A stretch of 64,000 bases of DNA, from the NCBI GenBank assembly GCA_016182655.1, contig JACPGB010000028.1, forward strand, positions 1-64,000, written 5' to 3'. Position 1 is the first letter of the stretch; each line of letters begins with the position of its first letter. The notes beneath the pieces are model-generated. The model had not been told where the DNA came from and ran no database searches. It saw only the letters and a list, made by a program, of their open reading frames with translations. Made by a program: the position numbers and the translations under genes. Shown piece after piece: positions 43,605 to 54,987 of the stretch. The stretch is from Deltaproteobacteria bacterium (lineage in GTDB: Bacteria; Desulfobacterota; GWC2-55-46).

Positions 43605-44039
43605 TCAATGCGCGAGCCGTACCGCCAACATCCCAAGGAACCTGTTTACAGAGCTCTGTCTCGGGAGGAACCCTATTACAGGTTTCCTTCTGAGCCCCAG
43701 CCCCTTCATCTCCTGAAGGAGGGCTCTGTTGTCGTTGTCGAACTTCAGCCCCTTCCTGAAGGCCCGGACCGCAACGGATTTCTGTCCGTTAAGGATGAAT
43801 ATCCTTCCCAGGTTCAGGTATATCTCCGGGTTGTAAAACTCCCTTTCAGCCGCCATGAGGCAGAGGGATATTGCCTTGTCGTAGTTTCCCTCTTCTGTTG
43901 CGAGGCACAAAGCGTAATAAGACATCGCCGTAGGGTGTTGCGTGAAGCAGAGGTCCTCGTCGAATACCCCGAGCGCTTCCCGATAGCGCCCGTCTCTTGC
44001 CAGCCCCATCCCCTTTTCGATCAAATCGCTTGTCTCCAT
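43605..44039 (-). CDS. TPR-repeat protein
   Basis: 144 residues with about three tetratricopeptide repeats: LIEKGMGLARDGRYREALGVFDEDL, SYYALCLATEEGNYDKAISLCLMA, IYLNLGRIFILNGQKSVAVRAFRKGLKFD. The C-terminus is basic (LRRKPVIGFLPRQSS). TPRs bind proteins. It lies 264 nt downstream of the Hsp70-like gene on the same strand, so it might be an accessory of that operon, though the gap argues for independent expression. Confidence 0.8.
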   Translation of the reverse strand: METSDLIEKGMGLARDGRYREALGVFDEDLCFTQHPTAMSYYALCLATEEGNYDKAISLCLMAAEREFYNPEIYLNLGRIFILNGQKSVAVRAFRKGLKFDNDNRALLQEMKGLGLRRKPVIGFLPRQSSVNRFLGMLAVRLAH

Positions 44040-44303: not shown

Positions 44304-46973
44304 TTACTGGAGTCTTATATCGGTCTCAAGTGCCTTGTTTTCAGGGCCGTAGACTACTTTCAAGCGCCCGCCCTCGTCGACTGAAAGGGTTACCTCGGTC
44401 GAGCCCTGTATCGGATTATTAAACGGGAGCGAGACCGTCCGCATGCCCTCGAGACCCAAGCCCGCGATCTCCCTTATCTCCTGCTTGAGGAACTCGATGC
44501 CGCCTTCCAGTGTCCACCTCCTGGCGATGAGCCCCTCGGGGACCTCGAAAAGCTCGAGCGTCATCTCGCTCTGCTCACCCAACTTCCTCGCCGGGGCGAC
44601 CGAGAAAGTCTTCTCCAGCGGAAGGGTCTCCCCCTTCTCGAGGACTATGCAGTAGGAGTGCGTCTCTTCCTTGCCCGCGGGCGCGTACCTTACGGCGTAG
44701 GCCAGACCCAGGTGCCTGTCGGTTATGTCCTTCGTCGCGTAGAGCGCCGCGCCGGAGGCCACGGCTGACAGGGGGCTATGGTCGTATATGGCGTTCTCTT
44801 TCCTCAACCTGGGGAAGAGGTCCCCTATCTTGGCCTTGAAGGACGGTATCTGCGAGGAACCCCCTGTAAGGAGGACCGCCTCAAGCCTCTCCTTTTTGAC
44901 GCCGACCTTCTCGGCCCTTCTGAGCACGTACGAGACCGTCCTGTCTATGAACTTATAGAACTCGTTCCTCTCGAGCACCTCTTCGAATTCGGTCCTCGTT
45001 ACGCGCGCGACCTCTCGCCCCTCCCACTCGAACGGGACCTCGTCCTTGTCCGACAACGCTATCTTTATGTGCTCGGCCTTGTGTATGAGCCTGTACGGCA
45101 GGTTCTCGGCCTCAAGGCCGATCATGCCGGCAAGGTGGCGCGCGAGCCAGATGTCGATATCATGCCCGCCAAGCAACTGCGCTCGCTCGGGCTTCGATAC
45201 GACATGGACCTCCTTGAGGTTCAGCCTTAAGACCATCGTGTTCAGGGTCGAGCCGCCGAAGTCTATGAGCATGACGACCTTGTCCCTCTCCTCCACGACC
45301 TGGTAGCCGACGGCCGCGGCAAGGGGCTCCTCTATGAACTCGACCTTCGAGCCCTTCATGTGGCGCGCGGCGATTCCCGAGAGCGCGGCCTTGTAGTCCT
45401 GATAGCCGATCGGCACCGTGATGTAGATCGTCTCGGCGACGCTCTTCGTCCCGAACGGGAGCCAGCCGCCGGGGACCGTGGCCTTACGCAGGTGCTGGGA
45501 GAGGAGTTTCAGGAACCTCTCCATGTAGTCCCTGCCCCTGGCGTTGCCCTCAAGGAGCATCTGCTTTATGTTGACTATCGGGTTCTCCTCGGCGACCTCC
45601 GTCCCGATGTTGTTCGTCTCGGCGCTTAAGACCGTAGGCACGACGAGCGTGCCGTCGCTGTAGCGCCTCGTTATCATCGGGAGCGGCAGGAACTCCGGGT
45701 CGGCCCCCCTGCCGCCGGCCCTCCTCCTCATGATGACGGTGTTAGTCGCGCCGAGGTCTATGGCGATGGTGTCGCCGGCGGACTCCGTCTTCCTCTGTAT
45801 GTAGCGCCCCTGCCCGTCCGGGTTCCGCTCCTTTACGAAGAGCGGCCTTTCTATCTCCCGGCCGTGGTAAGTCTTCTCGAGCGTGACGAGGCGGTCGACG
45901 ACTTTCCTTACCGCATCGCGGAGCCCCTTCGGCTGTACCCATACGTGGGTATACGGCTTCAAAATCTCTATGAACCGCGTGTCGTTGAGTTTTGTCCCGA
46001 ACTTCTCGATCTCGGTTGCGAGTGTCGTCGCGTACTTCTCCCTGGTGAACCGCTTCTGCTTCGACTCCTTCATCCCGAGCTCCTCGGCCGAAAGGATGAA
46101 GTCGACGACGTCGAGCACCTCGACGTCGCCCATCCACTTCTTTACGGTAAAAAATGAGAGCGCCTGCTCGACGGCTTCCTTGAGAATGGGGAAGAACTCG
46201 GGGGTCTTGGGCAGGACCTGTATCATCTCGATGAGGTTGTACTCCCTGGCGAACGGGTCTGTCGAGTCCGTAGCGGCCTTGAATGCGCCCCTCATGGCCT
46301 CGACGCGGAGCTCCGCGCAGCCCTCGACCGCCTTCAGCTCCTCGGCAATGAAAAGCATGGCGTACTTCCTGTAATAGGGCTCGGTAAGTATGCCTATGGC
46401 CTCCATCGCCCGCCTGACGCCATCTTTGTAGACGTCGAGGAACGCTCCGTCCTTGGGCATCGCCTTCGCGATCCCGAGCAGAGTGTACCTCCTGTAGAAG
46501 TCCTCGTCGCTCGCCTTCGGGAGGTCCTTGGCGACGAGCTCTATCGCCCTGTCCTTAAGCCTCGGCTTGTCGGCGAGCCCGAGCGCGAGCCTCCACGCGC
46601 GGACCCTCGACGGCAGAAACTCCGCGGTCTTCGGCATCTCGTTTGCGAGCTTCATGAGCTCGGTCGTCCTGTACTGGTGCTCATCGAGGGAGTCGGCGGC
46701 GTTTATGGCCTCGTCGACGGCGTCGGCGTAAAAGGGGCGGAAGAGCTCGGTATTGGGGAGTTCCTTTATATAGTCGAGGACGGCCTTCCTCTTTTCAGAC
46801 GGGTCGCCGACCTTGTCGATCAGTTCGTAGGCGAGCTTGAAGAGCACGAGAGCGTCGGCGCTCTTCGGGAGTTCCCGGACCGCCTTCATGAGGACGCCCC
46901 TTAACGGCTCGTCAAAGGCCGAGCCGTCCCTAACTGCGTAGAGCGCCTGTCTTGCCTTTTCCAGATCCGTCAT
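44304..46973 (-). CDS. Hsp70-like ATPase with N-terminal helical-repeat region
   Basis: 889 residues. The first about 280 form five or six helical repeats of about 48 residues, several marked by a LPKT/LPKS/MPKT turn (VRELPKSAD, NEMPKTAEF, VLPKTPEF). An Hsp70 ATPase follows from about 402: TIAIDLGATNTVIMRRR (phosphate 1), FIEEPLAAAVGYQ, LIDFGGSTLNTMVL (phosphate 2) and LLTGGSSQIPSFK (adenosine). The C-terminal client-like part is short. It is too divergent to be DnaK. The start overlaps the radical SAM stop by 4 nt, in an operon with the AAA-M41 protease. Confidence 0.87.
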   Translation of the reverse strand: MTDLEKARQALYAVRDGSAFDEPLRGVLMKAVRELPKSADALVLFKLAYELIDKVGDPSEKRKAVLDYIKELPNTELFRPFYADAVDEAINAADSLDEHQYRTTELMKLANEMPKTAEFLPSRVRAWRLALGLADKPRLKDRAIELVAKDLPKASDEDFYRRYTLLGIAKAMPKDGAFLDVYKDGVRRAMEAIGILTEPYYRKYAMLFIAEELKAVEGCAELRVEAMRGAFKAATDSTDPFAREYNLIEMIQVLPKTPEFFPILKEAVEQALSFFTVKKWMGDVEVLDVVDFILSAEELGMKESKQKRFTREKYATTLATEIEKFGTKLNDTRFIEILKPYTHVWVQPKGLRDAVRKVVDRLVTLEKTYHGREIERPLFVKERNPDGQGRYIQRKTESAGDTIAIDLGATNTVIMRRRAGGRGADPEFLPLPMITRRYSDGTLVVPTVLSAETNNIGTEVAEENPIVNIKQMLLEGNARGRDYMERFLKLLSQHLRKATVPGGWLPFGTKSVAETIYITVPIGYQDYKAALSGIAARHMKGSKVEFIEEPLAAAVGYQVVEERDKVVMLIDFGGSTLNTMVLRLNLKEVHVVSKPERAQLLGGHDIDIWLARHLAGMIGLEAENLPYRLIHKAEHIKIALSDKDEVPFEWEGREVARVTRTEFEEVLERNEFYKFIDRTVSYVLRRAEKVGVKKERLEAVLLTGGSSQIPSFKAKIGDLFPRLRKENAIYDHSPLSAVASGAALYATKDITDRHLGLAYAVRYAPAGKEETHSYCIVLEKGETLPLEKTFSVAPARKLGEQSEMTLELFEVPEGLIARRWTLEGGIEFLKQEIREIAGLGLEGMRTVSLPFNNPIQGSTEVTLSVDEGGRLKVVYGPENKALETDIRLQ

Positions 46974-47542
46974 CTGCCGAAACCCGCCCTGAAGGGGACC
47001 CTGCTGAACCCCGTCTCGACTATCGACCCGTCCTTCTTTATCGTCACTTCGACCTTGCCGTCCATGATGAAGTCTTCTTTGGAATATCTATTGGTGAGAA
47101 AGTGGAATCCCTGGTTGCTCGAGCCCCGCGCAAGGAGCGTGGGTTCTTTCTCGGTTTCGATGAACGGCCCGTCCACGAGGACGTCTATGTATTTCAACGC
47201 TTCTCGCGCGGCCTCTATCTTATTCAACTCCTCTATCGTGTAGCCGGTGTATACGATGGTGGAAAGAGAGCGCTCTCTCGCGGCTTTCAGGAGAAGGATG
47301 AGCCCTTCGGTCTGGGCGAACGGCTCACCGCCGCTTACGGTAATGCCCTCGACCGGGGTCTGTATCCGTTCGAATATCCCATCGATCGGGAGGAACTCCT
47401 TTATCCCGAACGAATGCGTCTCCGGGTTGAAGCACCCGCCGCACAGGCGCGCGCACCCCTGGAAAAATACGACGAGGCGCGCGCCGGGGCCGTTCACTCG
47501 CGACGACGGTATTACGGCGTGTATGTTCAACTGTGTCTTCAT
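46970..47542 (-). CDS. NrdG-like radical SAM protein
   Basis: 190 residues, a compact radical SAM enzyme. It opens LNIHAVIPSSRVNGPGARLVVFFQGC; the cluster motif is CARLCGGC (Cx3CxxC), with GITVSGGEPFAQ (SAM-binding GGE), TIVYTGYTIEEL and VDGPFIETEKEP. The pattern is of activating enzymes such as NrdG, which put a glycyl radical on a partner. No ribonucleotide reductase or glycyl-radical enzyme is near, so the partner may be a product of this operon. It ends over the Hsp70-like start. Confidence 0.88.
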   Translation of the reverse strand: MKTQLNIHAVIPSSRVNGPGARLVVFFQGCARLCGGCFNPETHSFGIKEFLPIDGIFERIQTPVEGITVSGGEPFAQTEGLILLLKAARERSLSTIVYTGYTIEELNKIEAAREALKYIDVLVDGPFIETEKEPTLLARGSSNQGFHFLTNRYSKEDFIMDGKVEVTIKKDGSIVETGFSRVPFRAGFGR

Positions 47543-47585: not shown

Positions 47586-47768
47586 TCAGTCGGAATCCAC
47601 CTTGAGCTTTATCTCCCTCTCGAAGACCTCGTCCTTCTCGGTAAAACTCTCCATCTCTCCCAATACCTTCGTCAGGTGGTCGGCGACATCCTTGCAGTCC
47701 TTGTAGATAGTGGAGTCTATCTCGACCCTGCCGTCGGCTGTGATCCTTATCTTTATCTGTCTGTCCAT
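47586..47768 (-). CDS. DUF2997-family small protein
   Basis: 60 residues: IKIRITADGRVEIDSTIYKDCKDVADHLTKVLGEMESF. This is the short beta-beta-alpha pattern of DUF2997, usually met beside DUF1257 proteins. The single cysteine (KDCKD) is a family feature. Function unknown. It lies 24 nt after the DUF1257 gene and 43 nt before the radical SAM gene. Assignment from memory of the family pattern. Confidence 0.75.
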   Translation of the reverse strand: MDRQIKIRITADGRVEIDSTIYKDCKDVADHLTKVLGEMESFTEKDEVFEREIKLKVDSD

Positions 47769-47792: not shown

Positions 47793-48131
47793 TTAACCCT
47801 TGAGCAGTATCTGTATCTCGCCTGAGGTCTCCGTCTCCTTCGATATCTCGAAGTCGAGCGGCAGGTTGTCCTTTATCGACTCGTAGGCGTAAATCTGTTT
47901 TAATCTGTCCGAGAACCTGTTTACGACCCTATTGTCTCCGCCGACCTGGTAATTGCCGGACTTCTCCTGCGAGAGCGTTATCATGTCGCCGTCCCTGTCG
48001 ACCTCTATCTCCTCTTTCCTGTCGTTCTTGACGAAGTTCGTTATCTCGCCGCGCTTCTTTAACTCCTCGAGCGCCGCGATCAGGTATTTCTTGCTGGAGA
48101 GCTGTGTCTTTATTACCGTATAGAAGGACAT
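47793..48131 (-). CDS. DUF1257 (Ycf35-like) protein
   Basis: 112 residues: MSFYTVIKTQLSSKKYLIAALEELK at the start, then IEVDRDGDMITLSQEKSGNYQVGGD and FSDRLKQIYAYESIKDNL, ending in a beta strand (TSGEIQILLKG). This layout is that of DUF1257, known as Ycf35 in cyanobacteria and plastids and of unknown function. It follows the Ycf46-like AAA gene by 92 nt. Linkage of Ycf35- and Ycf46-type proteins strengthens both calls. Confidence 0.78.
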   Translation of the reverse strand: MSFYTVIKTQLSSKKYLIAALEELKKRGEITNFVKNDRKEEIEVDRDGDMITLSQEKSGNYQVGGDNRVVNRFSDRLKQIYAYESIKDNLPLDFEISKETETSGEIQILLKG

Positions 48132-48223: not shown

Positions 48224-50359
48224 CTACTCTACCGGGTTCTCCTTGAAAAACTTCATGATGGCGTCGCCGTTCATCAGGACCTCTTTCGAGAGCCTCTCCA
48301 CGAAGGACATGAGGACGTCCTTGTTCCTCGAGATTATCCCGGCAGAGACCTCCTTGGCGGAGTCCAGTATCTTCTGGATGTCGTCCAGGACTTCGCTGCC
48401 GGAAGTCAACGCGAAGTCCTGTAGCACCACGAGGGATTTGTTCCTCATTATATCGCCGAAGCCGTACTCGACGACCATCCTCTTGGCTATATGGGTCGCC
48501 TGTATGAGGTCGTGGGACGCGCCTACGGTCTTGGAGTCGCCGCCTATGAGCTCGTCCTCGGCTACCATGCCCCCGAGTATCACGCCTATTTCCTTTTCGA
48601 GGTCCTTTTTCGTGAACGTCGTCCTTATGGCCTCATCCACCGGTATGTAGGCGCTGAAGTTCTTATAGTTGTCCACGGAGACGAAGGCCGGGGTCTTGTT
48701 GAAGTGTATCTTCATGAGTATGCAGTGGCCCGCCTCGTGTATGGCGATGTTCTTCTTCTCGTAGTCGGTAAGGGACTCCGCCCTCTGGAGGAAGAGGGAC
48801 TTGGAAGCCGGACGCGCCCTCTGGTGGCTCCAGGTGCGGAGCTCCTCTATCTCCTCTTTTTTCAAGACCGAAAGGGGCGTTATGTGCCTTATCGCGGAAA
48901 GGAGCGCATCCTGCGTGACATCGAGGGCAAGTAGCCCGTCGATCATGTCCTCGACCTCCTTGGAGGACTCTCCGCCGTGGAGGTTGTTGAAGGTGGTGAC
49001 GACGGCGTCCTTTACCGCCTGCTCGATCTCTGCGCCGGTGAAGCCCTGGCTGTTCTGCGCGAGCTCGCGGAGGTTGAGCCTGTTCATGTTCTGGATGCGC
49101 CTTTCGAGGTGGATCCTGTATATCTCCTCCCGCTCTTCCTGGCTGGGGAGATCGACGAAGAAGACCTCGTCGTACCTGCCCTTTCTCCAGAGCTCGGGCG
49201 GGAGGTTCTTGGGCTCGTTGGCGGTCGATATGACGAAGACCGGGTTCTCTTTTTCCTGCAACCATGTAATGAAAGTGCCGAAGACCCTCATCTGCGTGCC
49301 GGAGTCGCCCTGATAGCCGCCGATGCCGCCGAATGCCTTGTCTATCTCGTCTATCCAGAGTATGCAGGGGCTCACCGCCTCCGCAAGCTGTATGCACCTT
49401 CTGATGTTTTTCTCGGATTCACCGACCGTTGAGCCGAAGAGGCGGCCCACGTCGAGCCTGAGTAACGGCAGGTTCCAGATGCCCGCGAGCGCCTTGCAAC
49501 ATAAGCTCTTGCCGGAACCTGGCACGCCTATCAGAAGGAGGCCCTTGGGGATGTCGAGCCCGAGGGTCGATATCTTGTCCTTTGAGAGGCGGAAGACGTG
49601 CTCCCTTTCGACGAACCACTTCTTTATTTCAGAGAGTCCGCCGATGTTCTCGATGGTCTCCCTGTGCGGGTAGTAGTCGAGTATCCTCTGCTTCTTTATT
49701 ATCTGCTGTTTTTCGTCCTGTATGTAGGAGATGCAGTCTTCGTTAAGGAAGCCGTTGTTGAGGCTTATGGCCTTCCTTATGACCCTCCTTACGTTGTCCA
49801 TGGAAAGGCCCTGGAGTGACTTGTACAGGATGGAGCGGGTCGCGGCGTGCCATTTCTCGGGGATCAAGTGGCCGTAGGTCGTGGAGACCATCTCGGCTAT
49901 CTCGTCGTAGTCGGGCAGAGATAGTTCAAGGACGACCATGTCCTCTTCGAGCTCCGGCGGTATCTCGCTTAAGGTCGGAGAGAGTATGCAGACGGTGTTG
50001 AGGGTGTGGCGCTCGTCCATGATCGTTGGCAAATCCCTGAATTTTCTAAGGAATTCGTGGGAGTTGAAGTAGCTGGCAATGTCTTTTAAAAGGAATATGT
50101 TATTGGTGTTCTCGCCTTTGGTTATCTTCTCTTCGATGGTGGAGAGTATCTTCTCCTTCCCCATCTGCTCCCGTTTCTTCTTCTCGCCCCCATATAAGCC
50201 CCTCGATACGGACCAGGACCAGAAGGTGAACTTCATCGACTCGGAAAGGGACTCGATTATCCGCTCGACCCTTCTTTCCTCGAAAGAGACGAGCCAGAGG
50301 ATAGGATACCTCGCCTCCATGTGTATCCTTATCTCGTTTTCGAAGTCTTTGGTCTTCAT
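48224..50359 (-). CDS. Ycf46-like AAA+ ATPase fused to FtsH-type (M41) zinc protease domain
   Basis: 711 residues. Residues 1-230 resemble the Ycf46 N-terminal region (EIRIHMEARYPILWLVSFEE). The AAA+ core (about 235-430) has Walker A GVPGSGKS (278-285), Walker B ILWIDEID (333-340) and an arginine-finger-like WRKGRYDEVFFVDLP. The C-terminal part (about 530-705) has the zinc site HEAGH (541-545) and GGDSKTVGASHDLIQATHIAKRM, matching the FtsH third-ligand region. No transmembrane helix is visible, so it should be a soluble ATP-dependent protease, unlike FtsH. First gene of a five-gene operon. Confidence 0.9.
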   Translation of the reverse strand: MKTKDFENEIRIHMEARYPILWLVSFEERRVERIIESLSESMKFTFWSWSVSRGLYGGEKKKREQMGKEKILSTIEEKITKGENTNNIFLLKDIASYFNSHEFLRKFRDLPTIMDERHTLNTVCILSPTLSEIPPELEEDMVVLELSLPDYDEIAEMVSTTYGHLIPEKWHAATRSILYKSLQGLSMDNVRRVIRKAISLNNGFLNEDCISYIQDEKQQIIKKQRILDYYPHRETIENIGGLSEIKKWFVEREHVFRLSKDKISTLGLDIPKGLLLIGVPGSGKSLCCKALAGIWNLPLLRLDVGRLFGSTVGESEKNIRRCIQLAEAVSPCILWIDEIDKAFGGIGGYQGDSGTQMRVFGTFITWLQEKENPVFVISTANEPKNLPPELWRKGRYDEVFFVDLPSQEEREEIYRIHLERRIQNMNRLNLRELAQNSQGFTGAEIEQAVKDAVVTTFNNLHGGESSKEVEDMIDGLLALDVTQDALLSAIRHITPLSVLKKEEIEELRTWSHQRARPASKSLFLQRAESLTDYEKKNIAIHEAGHCILMKIHFNKTPAFVSVDNYKNFSAYIPVDEAIRTTFTKKDLEKEIGVILGGMVAEDELIGGDSKTVGASHDLIQATHIAKRMVVEYGFGDIMRNKSLVVLQDFALTSGSEVLDDIQKILDSAKEVSAGIISRNKDVLMSFVERLSKEVLMNGDAIMKFFKENPVE

Positions 50360-51264: not shown

Positions 51265-51912
51265 ATGGAATTCATAAAGGAGTTCATAGACATCTTCCTG
51301 CACCTCGACAGGCACCTGAACCTCATCATCCAGGACTACGGCGTATACACCTACGCGATACTCTTCCTCATCATTTTCTGCGAGACCGGGCTCGTGGTGA
51401 CGCCGATACTGCCAGGCGACTCGCTCCTCTTCGCCATCGGCAACTTCGCGGCAATGGGGTCGCTCCGCATAGAGTATGTCCTTATCGGGCTCTCCGTCGC
51501 CGCGATACTCGGAGACACCGTCAACTACGCCATAGGCCACTACATGGGACCCCGGGTCTTTCAGAAGACAAACAGCCGCATCTTCAAGAAGGAGTATCTG
51601 GAGAAGACCCACAAATTCTACGAGAAGTACGGCGGCAAGACCATCATCTTCGCGCGGTTCGTGCCTATCGTCCGCACCTTTGCGCCGTTCGTCGCGGGAG
51701 TCGGCGCGATGAGCTACGGCAAGTTCATCACATATAACATCGTGGGCGGGGTCCTCTGGATATGCTCGTTCGTGCTCGCGGGATACTTCTTCGGCGGGCT
51801 CCCGGCGGTAAAAAAGAACTTCACGCTCGTGATACTCGCCATCATCGTACTCTCGATATTGCCGGGGGTCATCGAGTACATAAGGCATAAGAGGAAGGGG
51901 TCGGGTAGATAG
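51265..51912 (+). CDS. DedA-family membrane protein
   Basis: 215 residues with about five membrane helices. DedA signatures: [24 protein letters not shown], the [13 protein letters not shown] helix, and [23 protein letters not shown] with the conserved Arg residues, then the C-terminal GYFFGG. DedA proteins are half-transporters, some acting as undecaprenyl-phosphate or lipid flippases and needed for proton-motive-force and envelope balance. AAAGGAAA lies before the ATG. Confidence 0.93.
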
Positions 51913-54195: not shown

Positions 54196-54365
54196 GCACC
54201 ATATGTGGTTAATATGAGCATTTTTATTTTCGACCTGCGCAGTCCTGCCGGACGGGCAACTCCGTATCAAAAGGCTGAAATCTCATTTACCCCAAAAGTT
54301 CCGTTCGAGACTTTGGCCCTGCGCCGAGCAGTCAGGAAAAATAACAATTTTTAGAGGTAGCCTTC
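54196..54365. repeat. Family C repeat interrupted by a family B unit
   Basis: Left: ATATGAGCATTTTTATTTTC and GACCTG; right: CAGGAAAAATAACAATTTTT and AGAGGTAGCCT. Between them, from about 54239 to 54331, lie family B boxes (TCCTGCCGGACGGGCA, CCGTATC, CCCTGCGCCGAGC). At 1.2 kb the corresponding place has only GACGCCGAGAT. So one repeat is nested in another. Confidence 0.75.
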
Positions 54366-54987
54366 ATTTAATCTCCTCAAACCTGTTCGTCCCCGGCGCA
54401 TACGCATACATCTCCCCCGTCGCTATGTCGAAGTACCACCCGTGGAGGAATAATTTTCCCGCCTTTATCGCCGCATCCACGAACGGGTATGTCTCGATGT
54501 TCTCAATCTGTTCGAGGATGTTTTCTTTTTCGGTGTATCCCTGGATGACCTCGGATTCGGAGTCCCCGAAGACCCCGAGGACATGCTCCCTCACGGGTCC
54601 GGCGAGTTTAAGCCAGTCCCTTAAGTGCGGCATCCCTTCAAGCTCCGACTCGTCCCGAAGGAGTGCCTTCATCGCCCCGCAGTTCGAATGTCCGCAGACG
54701 ATGATGTCAGTCACATTAAGCACCTGCACCGCGTACTCTATCGCCGCGGCCGTCGAGTTCTTGTCCTTCAGCGCGTCAAAAGGCGGGATGATGTTCCCGA
54801 TGTTCCTCAATATGAAGAGCTCCCCGGGGCCGGACTGCGTGACGAGGTGCGGGTCCACGCGGGAGTCCGAACATGTTATGAAGAGCACCTCCGGGTCCTG
54901 TCCCTTCGAGAGCCTTTTGAAGAACTCTTCTTCCTTCTTGAAATATGATTCCTGGAACTTCAATACGCCTTTATAAAGCCTCTCCAT
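54364..54987 (-). CDS. Beta-carbonic anhydrase
   Basis: 207 residues. Interconverts CO2 and bicarbonate. The zinc ligands and catalytic dyad are in LFITCSDSRVDP (Cys, Asp-Arg) and CGHSNCGAMKAL (His, Cys), with FILRNIGNIIPP and AAIEYAVQVLNV between. Length is typical of the plant-type beta class. It stands alone, convergent with the GT-C/TPR gene across a repeat cluster. Confidence 0.95.
   Translation of the reverse strand: MERLYKGVLKFQESYFKKEEEFFKRLSKGQDPEVLFITCSDSRVDPHLVTQSGPGELFILRNIGNIIPPFDALKDKNSTAAAIEYAVQVLNVTDIIVCGHSNCGAMKALLRDESELEGMPHLRDWLKLAGPVREHVLGVFGDSESEVIQGYTEKENILEQIENIETYPFVDAAIKAGKLFLHGWYFDIATGEMYAYAPGTNRFEEIK

Follow-up and report, generated by a model that had tools for sequence, protein, structure and literature searches.

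The open reading frame at positions 48,224-50,359 (minus strand) of the window, the 64,000-nucleotide stretch of deltaproteobacterial DNA that was analysed, is confirmed as a true chimera, in which a complete Ycf46 protein (residues 1-520) and an M41 peptidase domain of the FtsH type are joined in a chain of 711 amino acids. The gene begins with ATG, runs in one frame and contains no internal stops. In our judgement, the product is probably a cytosolic, self-compartmentalised AAA+ metalloprotease, which arose by one fusion event that attached M41 to the C-terminus of Ycf46, after the RARPAS motif.

An earlier note, made from the sequence alone, had described a single 711-residue chain with an ATPase and a C-terminal M41 part, and both Pfam models match it: AAA over residues 274-403 (9.7e-31) and Peptidase_M41 (PF01434) over residues 530-696 (3.0e-19, 70.1 bits vs a cut-off of 29.9). 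The gene call is also supported by related genomes and by the family alignment. Matches to the fusion protein were present in 44 of 59 related genomes, nearly all of them whole-length, with 70-99% identity and a single open frame; the exceptions were a few matches that were split or cut by contig ends and one genome (G058) with an unfused Ycf46. As most of the 59 related genomes have it, the fusion is not an assembly artefact. A chimeric assembly is ruled out by the identical fusion in many independent assemblies, and two genes or a frame break by the uninterrupted frame together with the whole-length matches. In one MAG (L044 / L024), the first 16 residues are in another frame and the N-terminal part is a separate ORF, which is probably a sequencing error or frameshift. 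Ordinary FtsHs coexist with the fusion in related genomes, and the source genome has two.

The Ycf46 part consists of a degenerate AAA+ domain without a P-loop (residues 1-229; 49,673-50,359, with all features of the gene on the minus strand) followed by an AAA+ domain of active type (residues 236-470; 48,950-49,654). These are 31% and 55% identical, respectively, to Ycf46 of Nostoc and of a Deferrisomatales member, and in the ATPase-domain tree the fused proteins join Ycf46, away from FtsH (100/100), which bears out the Ycf46-type N-terminal and ATPase parts that had been claimed. The AAA domain is 27-32% identical to the FtsHs of its own genome, and an ordinary FtsH minus its anchor is ruled out by these identities and by the tree. 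Walker A (GVPGSGKS, residues 278-285; 49,505-49,528) was found in 44 of the 45 distinct fused sequences, with GVPGGGKS in the other one, while Walker B (ILWIDEID, residues 333-340; 49,340-49,363) keeps WIDEID in 45 of 45, and the WRKGR arginine-finger motif was likewise found in all of them.

For the N-terminal domain, in which the invariant residues include E27, E28, R30, G54, D93, R105 and R108, the AF2 model had a pLDDT of 89.4, and the best PDB matches in Foldseek were all AAA+ ATPases (TRIP13, Vps4, RFC and PAN; E about 1e-6 to 1e-5, TM 0.5-0.6). The earlier note had seen a special substrate-recognition domain here; instead, the model points to a nucleotide-dead AAA+ module common to every Ycf46. 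As this modelled domain is an AAA+ fold without a P-loop, the domain order is dead AAA+, live AAA+ and M41, for which no description among FtsH-type enzymes was found in the open literature examined. In Ycf46 of cyanobacteria and red-algal plastids (slr0374 of Synechocystis) the same succession of a degenerate and an active AAA+ domain runs throughout residues 1-520, with WIDEIDKAF, RKGRxDE and a C-terminal RARxAS end. The fusion differs from these by its added M41, a lid insertion of about 20 residues and a pore with STVG instead of (G/S)LVG. We take Ycf46 to be the proper name for the cyanobacterial 500-aa proteins, of which the retrieved records were unannotated or called 'AAA family ATPase'.

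In the alignment, Ycf46 homology stops at the conserved RARPAS at about residue 519, and M41 begins directly after it. A family-profile scan of GTDB genomes, which relied on two short peptide patterns, gave 530 matches. The best 80 of these included 27 fused-family loci, some of them cut at contig ends, in MAGs named Deltaproteobacteria, Nitrospirae/Nitrospiria, Desulfuromonadales or plain bacterium; the other 53, from cyanobacteria, planctomycetes and others, were unfused Ycf46 ending near query residue 520. The full-length fusion was found in 12 of 297 genomes of its own phylum, where the remaining matches stop at around residue 520 or before it. For unfused matches, both the 53 among the best 80 and those of the phylum, the alignment never passes about residue 548. 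The claim that other Ycf46 proteins have no peptidase therefore holds across these GTDB and phylum matches. No report of Ycf46 joined to M41 was found in the open literature, subscription papers being largely outside the search.

The M41 domain (residues 530-711; 48,227-48,772) contains the HEAGH zinc/catalytic motif (residues 541-545; 48,725-48,739) and, 76 residues past H541, D617 (48,509-48,511), which aligns with FtsH TGAxxD and is the expected third ligand of a putative zinc site. Both, like the Walker motifs, lie at the residues given in the earlier note. HExxH and the distal Asp (GASxDL) were present in all 45 distinct sequences of the family, and the spacing of 76 was found in all 43 sequences measured by script, with the remaining two read by eye. 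Mean pairwise identity within these 45 sequences is 64% for M41 (minimum 49%), 77% for the N-domain and 84% for AAA. M41 is the least conserved structured part, and its retained catalytic residues are therefore informative. They bear on whether M41 could be a silent pseudo-protease and a hexameric scaffold only, as in plastid FtsHi, a known precedent (PMC8197885). Foldseek also matches the Ycf2-FtsHi motors, but the retention of HExxH and the Asp at +76 in every sequence, despite the low minimum and mean identity of M41, makes such a silent domain very unlikely.

Compared with the M41 of its own FtsHs, the domain is 26-27% identical, and in the M41 tree the fused domains form a single clade on a long branch, away from the FtsHs of their own class (100/100). 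In the full-length AF2 model HEAGH is located in a helix (532-553) and D617 in another (612-630), both at usable confidence, although the overall model is moderate (pLDDT 76.5, pTM 0.55, with much of the AAA region at 40-77). This was counted against a protease, as were the lower conservation of M41 and its lack of a loop of about 13 residues found in FtsH. The best Foldseek matches of the full-length model were FtsH crystal structures, then Ycf2-FtsHi and p97.

The lack of a membrane anchor claimed for the protein was upheld: no transmembrane segment is predicted, and the peak 19-residue Kyte-Doolittle value is 1.27, while the two FtsHs of this genome reach 2.45 and 2.65. A divergent neighbouring gene at 51,265-51,912 (plus strand) encodes a VTT/DedA membrane protein and adjoins the fusion in many members of its own family, so the fusion could be imagined as a membrane-associated machine recruited by a partner of this kind. 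However, this gene is on the other strand, no VTT match was found in the outer fused loci examined, and the fusion has no hydrophobic segment; we regard membrane recruitment as highly improbable. Like FtsH and the m-AAA and i-AAA proteases, the fusion combines in one chain an AAA+ domain and, behind it, an M41 domain that has HExxH and the third-ligand Asp, but it differs from them in having no transmembrane region and no FVG pore motif, a Ycf46-type ATPase and an extra dead AAA+ domain. With the NCBIfam FtsH model TIGR01241 it scores 171.8 bits, far under the cut-off of 600, and it is therefore not an FtsH and should not be filed as one.

The fusion is most likely a soluble ATP-dependent protease with a stress- or redox-linked client. 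The domain architecture, the retained catalytic residues, the lack of an anchor and the conservation of the operon are shown, whereas the hexamer, proteolysis driven by ATP, the clients and the roles of the partners are what we infer. Its subunits would form a hexamer with a dead first AAA+ layer and a catalytic second AAA+ layer over an M41 ring, and ATP hydrolysis would thread the substrate into the chamber of the zinc protease. The dead layer may take the assembly role of the transmembrane helices in mitochondrial FtsH relatives. YME1L, which is also an M41 AAA protease, functions as a soluble protein when another module hexamerises it (PMC5095350), and the cytosolic domains of FtsH alone can form hexamers (PMC9020784). 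The engineered soluble i-AAA protease hexYME1L (PMC5095350) resembles the fusion as an anchor-less M41 AAA+ protease with a soluble N-terminal assembly module, which is an engineered coiled coil there and would be a natural AAA+ domain here. The Ycf2-FtsHi plastid import motor is also an M41-related AAA+ with a link to a plastid ycf gene and similarity in Foldseek, but it involves another ycf protein and is envelope-bound, and FtsHi is regarded as proteolytically inactive.

A main weakness of the protease interpretation is the pore, where the alignment places T311 (49,427-49,429) opposite the Phe that FtsH has in its pore motif (FVG). This Thr is invariant in the fused family, and Ycf46 has Leu; the grip on the substrate may therefore be weak or different. 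The replacement would suit a narrow processing peptidase, in which M41 would cleave a single partner, such as a product of the operon, without threading and degrading clients, and the ATPase would serve as a remodeller or switch. Strictly conserved operon partners and the long, divergent branch of M41 are also consistent with this. However, the Walker A, Walker B and arginine-finger motifs are all intact, so the ATPase is not decaying, and we consider a processing peptidase unlikely.

Most of the biology is carried by the operon, which the earlier note missed. The fusion is the first gene of an operon-like row on the minus strand, followed by a DUF1257 (Ycf35)-like protein of 112 aa (47,793-48,131), a DUF2997-like protein of 60 aa (47,586-47,768), an NrdG-like radical-SAM protein of 190 aa with CxxxCxxC (46,970-47,542), an Hsp70-like ATPase of 889 aa with a long N-terminal extension (44,304-46,973) and a TPR protein of 144 aa (43,605-44,039). 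The DUF1257-like protein has no direct Pfam match, but an iterated profile joins it to a Deferrisomatales neighbour, and DUF1257 in Pfam is matched by four such neighbour proteins (best 3.5e-24). The DUF2997-like protein matches DUF2997 under the curated cut-off (E=0.002), while its counterparts at other loci match with up to 2.7e-17. The radical-SAM protein is under the NrdG cut-off, the Hsp70-like protein matches Pfam HSP70 over 515-745 (3e-20), and the TPR protein is in the same place in seven longer fused loci. The order from the fusion through DUF1257, DUF2997 and radical-SAM to Hsp70 holds in nearly all fused loci that have sufficient flanking sequence.

Unfused members of the same phylum have the order Ycf46, DUF1257, DUF2997, HEAT-like and Hsp70, or have Hsp70 in front; no M41 was found in these loci, and the radical-SAM profile was unmatched there. 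In three unfused loci (L071, L148 and L153), a shorter Hsp70-like protein comes after a separate repeat-like one, which suggests that the Hsp70-like protein with its long N-terminal extension is another fusion within the operon. The DUF1257 and DUF2997 neighbours are also shared with planctomycetes, where they are kept together with Ycf46. Because the operon, minus M41, persists in unfused sister lineages, the peptidase is probably a later addition to an older module. In the simplest scenario, M41 and the radical-SAM gene joined an old module of Ycf46, DUF1257, DUF2997 and Hsp70 in one lineage, the direction being taken from the distribution and not from a rooted tree.

Clients would probably be delivered by the DUF1257/Ycf35-like, DUF2997-like and Hsp70-like partners. 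They are likely to be tied to an Fe-S or redox process, given the radical-SAM partner here and the ferredoxin Fed7, which is clustered with DUF2997 and Ycf35 in cyanobacteria (PMC4284462). The radical-SAM protein is activase-like, though Gly_radical and NRDD both gave zero matches in the source genome with positive controls; a glycyl-radical client is ruled out on this ground, and the protein is therefore probably not a ribonucleotide-reductase activase. The genes ycf35 and ycf46 have been lost from red-algal plastids in similar patterns, which are linked to habitat (PMC5940233). PMC7496141 describes the Synechocystis Ycf46 operon as responding to shortage of iron, sulfur and nitrogen, high light and oxidative stress, and loss of Ycf46 as lowering the activity of the carbonic anhydrase EcaB (citing Jiang 2015). 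This stress response, together with the Hsp70-like and Fe-S neighbours, speaks for a role in the quality control or remodelling of a client with a link to redox processes. The EcaB link also raised the idea of a carbonic anhydrase as a conserved partner, which was rejected: a beta-carbonic anhydrase gene lies 4 kb from the fusion (54,364-54,987, minus strand), in a neighbourhood kept in the same genus only.

Unfused Ycf46-like ATPases were also found in Corndog-like mycobacteriophages and in a streptococcal satellite phage, with 28% identity over residues 9-520 (Mycobacterium phage Firecracker gp100, L114). The PHROG families include the Ycf46-like phrog_8638, which matches residues 4-531 (7e-127), and the DUF1257-like phrog_20456. 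A phage operon of the same kind was not retained, as the neighbours of the Firecracker AAA gene are unlike DUF1257 and DUF2997, judged by eye. Such phage proteins would suit an ATPase of the IetA/SgiA kind that carries its own protease and works in defence or in a toxin-antitoxin system. The match of the AAA region to IetA models (4e-31) would also suit this, as would the description of SgiA as an antitoxin from the SpoVK/Ycf46/Vps4 superfamily of AAA+ proteins that has a subtilisin-like protease as its partner (PMC10954446). However, the IetA match is limited to the ATPase core and is not full-length for the profile, no single place in a phage or plasmid record reaches 80% coverage of the fusion query, and the fusion is single-copy in one conserved operon across a class, which leaves this explanation extremely improbable. 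No subtilisin-like gene (the IetAS partner) was found among the operon genes searched.

To summarise, M41 AAA+ proteases have been described as membrane-anchored, and this rule would change with a natural member that has a dead AAA+ layer and no anchor, which would also be tractable as a soluble enzyme. The fusion acts as a Rosetta stone for Ycf46, of which the biochemical role is unsettled: as an M41 chamber is of use chiefly where a motor feeds it, the fusion implies that Ycf46 can unfold proteins, and Ycf46 may be a protein-unfolding motor. More tentatively, Ycf46, Ycf35 (DUF1257) and DUF2997 could form an ancient unfoldase module with Hsp70/HEAT partners and a slot for an Fe-S protein (ferredoxin in cyanobacteria, radical-SAM here), which in most lineages would remodel or hand on its clients and in the fused clade would have become a one-chain soluble tandem-AAA+ M41 protease. 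By tying Ycf46 to Ycf35/DUF2997 and Hsp70, the operon allows the function of two plastid ycf genes to be tested.
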